Source: Nitrospirota bacterium
GTDB taxonomy: Bacteria; Nitrospirota; 9FT-COMBO-42-15; HDB-SIOI813
Assembly (NCBI GenBank): GCA_020846775.1
Contig: JADLDG010000089.1
Coordinates: 1 to 45,102 of the forward strand
DNA length: 45,102 bases
Reading direction: 5' to 3'
The notes under the pieces are model-generated. The model was not told the DNA's origin, made no database searches, and was given only the letters and a program-made list of their open reading frames with translations. This document shows positions 5,862 to 37,517 of this stretch, piece after piece. How positions within the stretch are numbered: position 1 is the stretch's first letter; every line of letters starts with the position of its first letter. The position numbers and the translations under genes were made by a program.

Positions 5862-6044
5862 CTATCTCTTTTTCCACCGCCACAAGACTACTCCACCTAT
5901 TGATGCAGCCCCTGAAGCCAGTAATAAAAGTGAGCTGGGCTCAGGCACCTGCGTAACAGGCGGGAGAGGAGGAGTTCCTCCAGCAGCGACATTCGCGGTA
6001 ACAAACAGGACCATAACGATTACACCTGTTAATATATTCCTCAT
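5862..6044 (-). CDS. PEP-CTERM mini-protein (60 aa)
   Basis: The start is the ATG at 6044, preceded by AAAGGAGAG at good spacing; the open frame upstream of it shows no protein-like features. The product is almost only sorting signals: signal peptide NILTGVIVMVLFVTANVAAG, a spacer of about ten residues rich in proline (TPPLPPVTQ), then the PEP-CTERM tail VPEPSSLLLLASGAASIGGV ending in WRWKKR. PEP-CTERM tails are recognised by the exosortase/EpsH system in Gram-negatives that make extracellular polysaccharide. There is practically no mature domain, so the cleaved product would be a short peptide. No exosortase gene is in this window. It may be a degenerate remnant of a longer PEP-CTERM protein. 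Confidence 0.75.
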   Translation of the reverse strand: MRNILTGVIVMVLFVTANVAAGGTPPLPPVTQVPEPSSLLLLASGAASIGGVVLWRWKKR

Positions 6045-35716: not shown

Positions 35717-35754
35717 AATAAGCCCCAATATCTCTGATAATGGGGCTTATTTTA
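35717..35754 (+). terminator. Rho-independent terminator after narK
   Basis: AATAAGCCCC (35717-35726) pairs perfectly with GGGGCTTATT (35742-35751), loop of 15 bases, followed by TTT. It ends the usp-narK transcript; the sequence is also roughly symmetrical and may stop the leftward microprotein transcript. Confidence 0.85.
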
Positions 35755-35778: not shown

Positions 35779-35874
35779 TTAACTGTAAACGGCTACACCA
35801 AGAACAGTTACAGATATTACTAATATATTCAGTGCCAGCCCTGCATAAAGTTGAATTTTCGTATATTTACTCAT
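35779..35874 (-). CDS. Single-span membrane microprotein 1 (31 aa)
   Basis: An ATG at 35874 with AAAGGAGG six bases upstream opens a 31-codon frame: MSKYTKIQLYAGLALNILVI then SVTVLGVAVYS. A short basic head and a hydrophobic span of about 20 residues predict a single-span inner-membrane protein, N-in. It is a clear paralogue of the next microprotein (TKIQLYAGL shared, VIS-T--GV-Y pattern). TATAAT (revcomp of 35904-35909) lies about 30 bases before the ATG. I do not recognise the family. Confidence 0.75.
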   Translation of the reverse strand: MSKYTKIQLYAGLALNILVISVTVLGVAVYS

Positions 35875-35899
35875 TTTAATCCTCCTTTAAATTTCTTAC

Positions 35900-36083
35900 A
35901 GTCATTATAATAATCCAATATTAAAGCTGCATTAAAAGCCATAGATGACTACTCCAAATGCCGTAGCTGATATTACTACTATGGTCAGGACCAACCCCGC
36001 ATAAAGCTGAATTTTTGTATGTTTACCCATTTTAATTCCTCCTTCCAATTTCTATAAGTCATTATAATAATCCAATATTAAAG
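35900..36083. repeat. Direct repeat bounding the microprotein duplication
   Basis: A 27-base string is identical at 35900-35926 and 36057-36083 (begins AGTCATTATAATAATCC and ends AATATTAAAG), 157 bases apart. Each copy lies just upstream of one microprotein gene and carries its TATAAT box, so gene plus leader were duplicated as a unit. Confidence 0.9.
35932..36030 (-). CDS. Single-span membrane microprotein 2 (32 aa)
   Basis: An ATG at 36030 with GGAAGGAGG seven bases upstream opens a 32-codon frame: MGKHTKIQLYAGLVLTIVVI then SATAFGVVIYGF. It has the same plan as microprotein 1: a basic head and one transmembrane helix. The two share TKIQLYAGL and the VIS-T--GV-Y pattern, with third-base differences, which suggests protein-level selection. 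TATAAT (revcomp of 36061-36066) lies about 30 bases before the ATG. The family is unknown to me; the pair stands between the nitrate carrier and a cation/proton antiporter. Confidence 0.78.
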   Translation of the reverse strand: MGKHTKIQLYAGLVLTIVVISATAFGVVIYGF

Positions 36084-36175: not shown

Positions 36176-36197
36176 CTACTTACATCTATGTAAGTAG
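36176..36197. promoter_or_regulatory. Perfect 22-base palindrome in a divergent promoter region
   Basis: CTACTTACAT (36176-36185) and ATGTAAGTAG (36188-36197) are exact inverted repeats two bases apart. It lies between the leftward microprotein genes and the rightward antiporter gene, with no T-run after it, so an operator is more likely than a terminator. Which gene it controls is not visible. Confidence 0.55.
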
Positions 36198-36281: not shown

Positions 36282-37517
36282 ATGGAAATATCGTTCGTTT
36301 TTTTAATAGCAGGGCTTATCATAATTATCGGTTTTTTTGGAGGTGTCTCTTTCGAAAGGACAAAAATCCCGGATGTCCTTGTCCTCCTGGGGATAGGTGT
36401 AGTCCTGGGCCCCTTATTCGGTCTTGTTGACCCAAAAAACCTAACCCGATTTGCAGAATATTTCGGTTCTCTGGCACTCATGATCATTCTCTTCGAGGGT
36501 GGGATGGATATGGACCTCAAAAAATTGATGAAAGAGTTCGGGACAGCCTCTCTCCTTGTTATGCTCTCCTTCGTACTTTCCACCCTTTCCATCGCAGGTT
36601 TTCTATTTTTCATAGAAAGCTGGGACATATTGAGAAGCCTTCTGTTAGGTACAATTCTGGGCTGTACAAGCGCAGCCATAGTTATTCCTGTTATTGGCAT
36701 GATGTCATTAAAAGAGGAAATAAAGACTATACTATCCGTAGAGTCGGCATTCAGCGATGTCTTTGCAGTCATATTTACTGTCTCATTAATCGAATTTGTA
36801 CAGCTCGAGACTAAAGGAATTGATGCACCTTTTCGAGCAGTCGCCAGTTCTTTTTCAATCGCAATTGTATTAGGGGTAGCCTCAGGGTTATTTTGGCTGA
36901 AGATACTTGATATTTTCAAGGACCGAAAATATTCCTACATGACTACGCTGGCTGCAATGCTGATAGTTTATGCGTTAGTAAATTTTCTTGGAGGGAGCGG
37001 GCCGATCTCTATTCTGATATTTGGCATCATACTCGGTAATTGTACTGATCTGGCTGGATTTCTGAAATTAAAGACCTGCTCTCTGGTAGATGTATCCATC
37101 AAATTTCTGCATGGAGAAGTAACCTTCTTTATCAGGACCTTTTTCTTTGTCTATATGGGAATGATGATCTCTTTCTCTCTCATTAGTCGCGACTTCCTTG
37201 CATTGAGTCTTGCACTGGTTTTGATTATCCTGCTGGTCAGGTATATAAGCGTCTTTGTAATTGCGTTGTTCTTTCAGGAAAAAAAGAGGGACAGGTTCGT
37301 GATGCTTTCCATGCTTCCGAGGGGACTTGCCTCGGCTGTCCTGGCTACTCTCCCGGCAACGGCCAACATTATTGGTACTGAACATTTTACGGACTATACA
37401 TTTGCTGTTATTGTCATGACAAACATCCTGATGACCACTGGTGTTTTTTTTGTTTCGAGGAAAAACGGCCACCCATTATTAAAGGCAGGAGGGAATCGAG
37501 TATCCCATCAAATATAG
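36282..37517 (+). CDS. Cation/proton antiporter (CPA family, NhaP-like)
   Basis: 411 residues with about twelve spans and no C-terminal TrkA/RCK domain. Family motifs: DVLVLLGIGVVLGPLFGLVD, MIILFEGGMDMDLKKLMKE, GTILGCTSAAIVIPVIGMM and SVESAFSDVFAVIFTVSLIE. The ion-site Asp is in ESAFSD, where the usual preceding Asn is Ser, and the TD of helix 5 is TS, so ion selectivity may differ from standard NhaP. It should exchange Na+ or K+ for protons. It is transcribed away from the microprotein genes. GAGTT before the ATG is a weak ribosome binding site. Confidence 0.88.
   Translation: MEISFVFLIAGLIIIIGFFGGVSFERTKIPDVLVLLGIGVVLGPLFGLVDPKNLTRFAEYFGSLALMIILFEGGMDMDLKKLMKEFGTASLLVMLSFVLSTLSIAGFLFFIESWDILRSLLLGTILGCTSAAIVIPVIGMMSLKEEIKTILSVESAFSDVFAVIFTVSLIEFVQLETKGIDAPFRAVASSFSIAIVLGVASGLFWLKILDIFKDRKYSYMTTLAAMLIVYALVNFLGGSGPISILIFGIILGNCTDLAGFLKLKTCSLVDVSIKFLHGEVTFFIRTFFFVYMGMMISFSLISRDFLALSLALVLIILLVRYISVFVIALFFQEKKRDRFVMLSMLPRGLASAVLATLPATANIIGTEHFTDYTFAVIVMTNILMTTGVFFVSRKNGHPLLKAGGNRVSHQI

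Follow-up and report, generated by a model that had tools for sequence, protein, structure and literature searches.

A tandem pair of duplicated genes for predicted single-span membrane microproteins in a Nitrospirota bacterium

The 45,102-nt contig JADLDG010000089.1 of a Nitrospirota bacterium (assembly GCA_020846775.1), referred to here in its full length as the window, carries two tandem genes, U (upstream copy) and D (downstream copy), each encoding a predicted single-span membrane microprotein (Table 1). Computation on the two copies establishes that they are coding, that selection acts on their peptides and that the gene was duplicated jointly with its promoter region. The initial annotation, made from the DNA letters, had proposed two tandem microprotein genes of 31 and 32 residues; its coordinates and anatomy proved accurate, membrane insertion being a prediction.

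Anatomy of the two genes

How alike are the two copies? In register, they align over 95 nt at 77% identity and over 53 nt at 87%. At the protein level the identity is 65%, so that the 'near-identical plans' of the initial annotation hold for the plan and not for the sequence. The shared stretch that it singled out, TKIQLYAGL, is indeed invariant, and its strong GGAGG sites were recovered as an AAGGAGG Shine-Dalgarno site before each gene. Every replacement between U and D keeps the basic head and the one helix, leaving the hydrophobic plan unchanged. AlphaFold predicts a helix in U from residue 3 to residue 30 with a mean pLDDT of 88, and the 18-residue hydropathy maximum of U is 2.53 (2.4-2.5 across the pair). 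With fewer than 50 residues, a single predicted hydrophobic helix and protein-level selection on the ORF, both predicted proteins can be classed as single-span membrane microproteins. On a helical wheel, a conserved arc (G12, L15, V19, T23, G26 and Y30) lies opposite a variable one, as would suit a single binding face; at P ~0.1 this is only suggestive.

Table 1. Features of the microprotein locus (positions in the window)
Feature	Position	Strand	Description
Upstream copy U	36030-35932	minus	32 aa, MGKHTKIQLYAGLVLTIVVISATAFGVVIYGF, predicted single-span microprotein
Downstream copy D	35874-35779	minus	31 aa, MSKYTKIQLYAGLALNILVISVTVLGVAVYS, predicted single-span microprotein
27-bp block of U	36057-36083	minus	CTTTAATATTGGATTATTATAATGACT; probably the spacer of the promoter with its -10 box (TATAAT)
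27-bp block of D	35900-35926	minus	exact repeat of CTTTAATATTGGATTATTATAATGACT, identical to the U block, spacing 157
Leader of U	36031-36056	minus	AAGGAGG; little structure (z -1.3); expected 5' UTR ~25 nt
Leader of D	35875-35899	minus	AAGGAGG; little structure (z -0.8)
Strong hairpin	35717-35751		between the convergent ends of D and narK; -20.1 kcal/mol, z -5.4
Perfect 22-bp dyad	36176-36197		CTACTTACAT-NN-ATGTAAGTAG; operator-like, in the gap from the U promoter to the antiporter gene (divergent)

A further small ORF lies elsewhere in the window (5862-6044, minus strand). It encodes 60 residues behind a Shine-Dalgarno site, with an N-terminal signal-like helix and a C-terminal VPEPSSLLLLASGAASIGGVVLWRWKKR that looks like a PEP-CTERM sorting signal.

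Selection on the peptides

The nucleotide changes between U and D comprise 14 synonymous and 11 replacement differences. Relative to the sites available, 14 of ~23.7 synonymous sites differ versus 11 of ~69.3 replacement sites (pS 0.59, pN 0.16; Fisher P = 1.4e-4). This corresponds to a dN of 0.18, a dS of 1.17 and a dN/dS of ~0.15, a ratio which comes from 31 codons and is imprecise, with a wide error, although a value near 1 is unlikely. Among neutral simulations in which the frame stayed open, 0.24% reach so low a pN/pS (P = 0.0024), and stop codons interrupt each of the remaining five frames in one copy or, in most cases, in both. The differences are thus conservative, as had been claimed; the Ka/Ks check then recommended has now been made on the U/D pair itself, and the ratio near 1 named as evidence against the genes is excluded. 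On the evidence of the duplication, U and D are coding, and the comparison of the two sequences identifies them as real duplicated genes whose peptides are under purifying selection. Could they nevertheless be spurious ORFs or decaying repeats? No homologues were found in the searches described below, which favours such a reading, but the low dN/dS, the intactness of both ORFs and the conservation of Shine-Dalgarno sites and promoter make it hardly credible.

Promoter block, leaders and terminator

The duplicated unit runs from the 27-bp block, via the short leader with its AAGGAGG, to the stop codon. The initial annotation had already described gene, leader and TATAAT box as one duplicated unit of 157 bases, and the exact 27-nt repeat bears this out; the coding parts are 156 bp apart and the blocks 157, owing to a 1-nt indel in the leader. 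A good -35 hexamer conserved between the copies was not found at 17 bp from the TATAAT. Why is the block so well preserved? It is 100% identical between copies whose synonymous sites are only ~41% identical, so that drift is no explanation and the match reflects either selection on a shared promoter/operator or local gene conversion. Of these two, we infer selection on a shared promoter/operator as the likelier. A scan of the 2.7-Mb genome for the 24-nt core of this block, allowing at most three mismatches, gave no further copy. The 27-bp element was also considered as a genome-wide operator and rejected, as no other site was found and the matches to a 16-nt core with one or two mismatches have no comparable microprotein gene downstream. 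The 22-bp dyad is likewise unique in the genome.

The hairpin beyond D is probably a bidirectional terminator, at which a bicistronic U-D transcript and a monocistronic D transcript would alike stop; a consensus terminator scan did not flag it. With this terminator-like hairpin of its own, a convergent narK on one side and a divergent antiporter gene on the other, U and D appear to be transcribed as a unit independent of both neighbours.

The leaders bear on the main rival explanation, a duplicated type I toxin-antitoxin system, which we consider unlikely. Here U and D would be small membrane toxins on the Ldr/Ibs/ZorO plan, and a small RNA missing from the annotation, antisense or divergent, would hold them in check. 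The mRNAs of typical type I toxins have long structured leaders, and a charged C-terminal tail is common, if not universal, among the toxins. The leaders of U and D, by contrast, are short (~25 nt) and open, the Shine-Dalgarno site lying in sequence of little structure, and neither protein has a charged C-terminal tail. Moreover, no antisense RNA gene was detected with confidence at the locus, the Rfam antitoxin families all stayed below their gathering scores and neither peptide matches Ldr, Ibs or ZorO/ZorP in sequence. What the pair does have in common with these toxins is that it is tiny, hydrophobic, tandem and intergenic; ZorO and ZorP of E. coli O157:H7 are themselves encoded by a tandem pair of genes for small hydrophobic proteins (PMC3919570). 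The TATAAT core is palindromic (ATTATAAT), and a weak plus-strand promoter match (9/12) lies in the D leader at 35886-35914, but the U copy lacks this match.

Search for relatives

Do U and D have homologues? The peptides have no other copy in their own genome (2.7 Mb), and no homologue was found in 60 relatives, in ten genomes of the order and class (including nine class-mates), in 396 genomes of the phylum searched with a two-row profile, or among plasmids, phages and the PDB. Neither back-translated patterns nor a looser one that included a Shine-Dalgarno site retrieved any from GTDB or IMG/VR. With E <= 10 as the limit, Pfam, NCBIfam, PHROGs and PADLOC gave only two matches, both from PHROGs and insignificant (E 0.14 and 0.26), so that at the profile cut-off the peptides belong to no named family in these four libraries, in line with what had been supposed from the sequence.

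Several candidates were set aside. Weak profile matches occurred in 91 phylum genomes, most of them inside long frames. The 16 in short frames, or otherwise plausible, included no comparable short, Shine-Dalgarno-led single-span ORF except a 58-aa protein of the class-mate G008 (L100:531-707), which resembles CbtB, the short cobalt-transporter subunit. This protein has the motif VISAxAxGVxxYG in common with U, but with 396 genomes searched its per-genome E of 0.26 is at chance level, and it carries a His-containing C-terminal tail that U and D lack. The only single-span candidate from the GTDB patterns (L065:5085-5177) is antisense within a 465-aa gene and was rejected, and the IMG/VR matches were either out of frame or lay in unrelated proteins of greater length.

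An absence of homologues outside this strain had been named beforehand as an argument against the genes, and it is formally what was found. It is weak evidence, as the class is sampled by only ten genomes (four at least 90% complete) and similarity searches easily miss proteins of 30 residues, and the 'orphan' status may reflect poor sampling. The near-saturation of synonymous sites between U and D suggests that the duplication is old, in which case relatives may exist unsampled.

Neighbouring transporters

The pair lies, as first described, between a nitrate carrier with its Usp partners and a cation/proton antiporter: a convergent gene for a NarK-family MFS transporter, with usp genes ahead of it, and a divergent gene for an antiporter with a Na_H_Exchanger domain. 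Are U and D dedicated subunits or regulators of one of these? Adjacency favours it, and a near-complete congener (G001) lacks the pair together with close homologues of both the antiporter and NarK. However, the pair stands alone on the opposite strand as a separate unit, and homologues of the two transporters do without it. No such pair accompanies the NarK orthologue of G006 (76%), where the following gene presumably encodes a RadC-like protein (its sequence was read by eye), or the NarK homologue of G016 (55%). It is equally absent beside the antiporter paralogue on contig C98 of the same genome (78%) and the antiporter homologues of G208 (68%) and G232 (39%). The link to the neighbouring transporters put forward in the initial annotation was therefore not borne out, the functional connection resting on adjacency alone, and we regard a dedicated role at either neighbour as quite improbable.

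The neighbourhood offers two further observations. The antiporter (36282-37517) shares 78% identity with a paralogue elsewhere in its genome (G000:C98:14145-15326), whereas homologues at E <= 1e-80 occur in only 2 of 395 other genomes of the phylum, which suggests lateral acquisition. In the class-mate G006, an unrelated 47-aa single-span ORF (METNKQISGIISLEGSEDAGLSYRGEVLYYFVFFAAMAVIPAVVLLF; L042:2967-3110, plus strand) lies upstream of the usp-narK pair, a different microprotein at the homologous locus.

Possible function

What might the two proteins do? The explanation that we prefer, with about even confidence, is that they are conditionally expressed accessory or regulatory helices of some membrane complex and work through helix-helix contacts. 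U and D would be paralogous inner-membrane proteins with a basic N-terminus that is probably cytoplasmic, the helix at residues 3-30 and hardly any tail at the C-terminus. They would be made from short transcripts of their own, jointly regulated through the same 27-bp promoter/operator block before each gene, and both transcripts would end at the hairpin before narK. Under some condition their helices might pack on a larger membrane protein, much as AcrZ, CydX and KdpF do, and this hypothetical partner need not be either neighbour. The likeness to these three lies in the size of about 30-50 residues and the one membrane helix, and AcrZ too is made from a stand-alone gene. There are also differences: no sequence match to any of the three, a tandem duplicate with a duplicated promoter, and no operon partner (one neighbour is convergent, the other divergent, and the pair has the strand to itself), whereas the genes for CydX and KdpF lie together with those of their complexes.

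We count in favour of accessory helices the selection on the peptides, the invariant TKIQLYAGL, the confidently predicted single helix, the Shine-Dalgarno sites in open leaders, the conserved promoter block and the pair's own hairpin. Against it stand the non-significant helical-face signal, the homologues of both neighbours that do without the pair, the missing homologues, which leave no synteny or co-occurrence to name a partner, and the fact that type I toxins likewise look like small hydrophobic tandem duplicates.

Another way to account for the same anatomy is that U and D are stand-alone membrane-stress proteins which need no single partner and act on the bilayer or the membrane potential generally, with a YohP-like slowing of metabolism. 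YohP reportedly silences metabolism (PMC12719787). Own promoters, the absence of an operon partner and a hydrophobic helix with no soluble domain would all fit, and the invariant positions cluster at the N-terminal interface (residues 5-13), where they could serve insertion only; yet the invariance of TKIQLYAGL exceeds what insertion alone would be expected to need, and we find this explanation doubtful. A more elaborate version of the accessory-helix proposal, in which U and D found a new paired single-span family, the copies differing in function, sharing one conserved operator and together forming a hetero-oligomeric regulator of a membrane complex in this thinly sampled class, strikes us as rather improbable.

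If a partner is found, the pair would be a new microprotein regulator in a lineage almost without experimental work; otherwise, it would join the very many uncharacterised small membrane proteins. In this locus an internal duplication stands in for the missing homologues, the copies themselves revealing selection on a 31-residue orphan and the conservation of its promoter.
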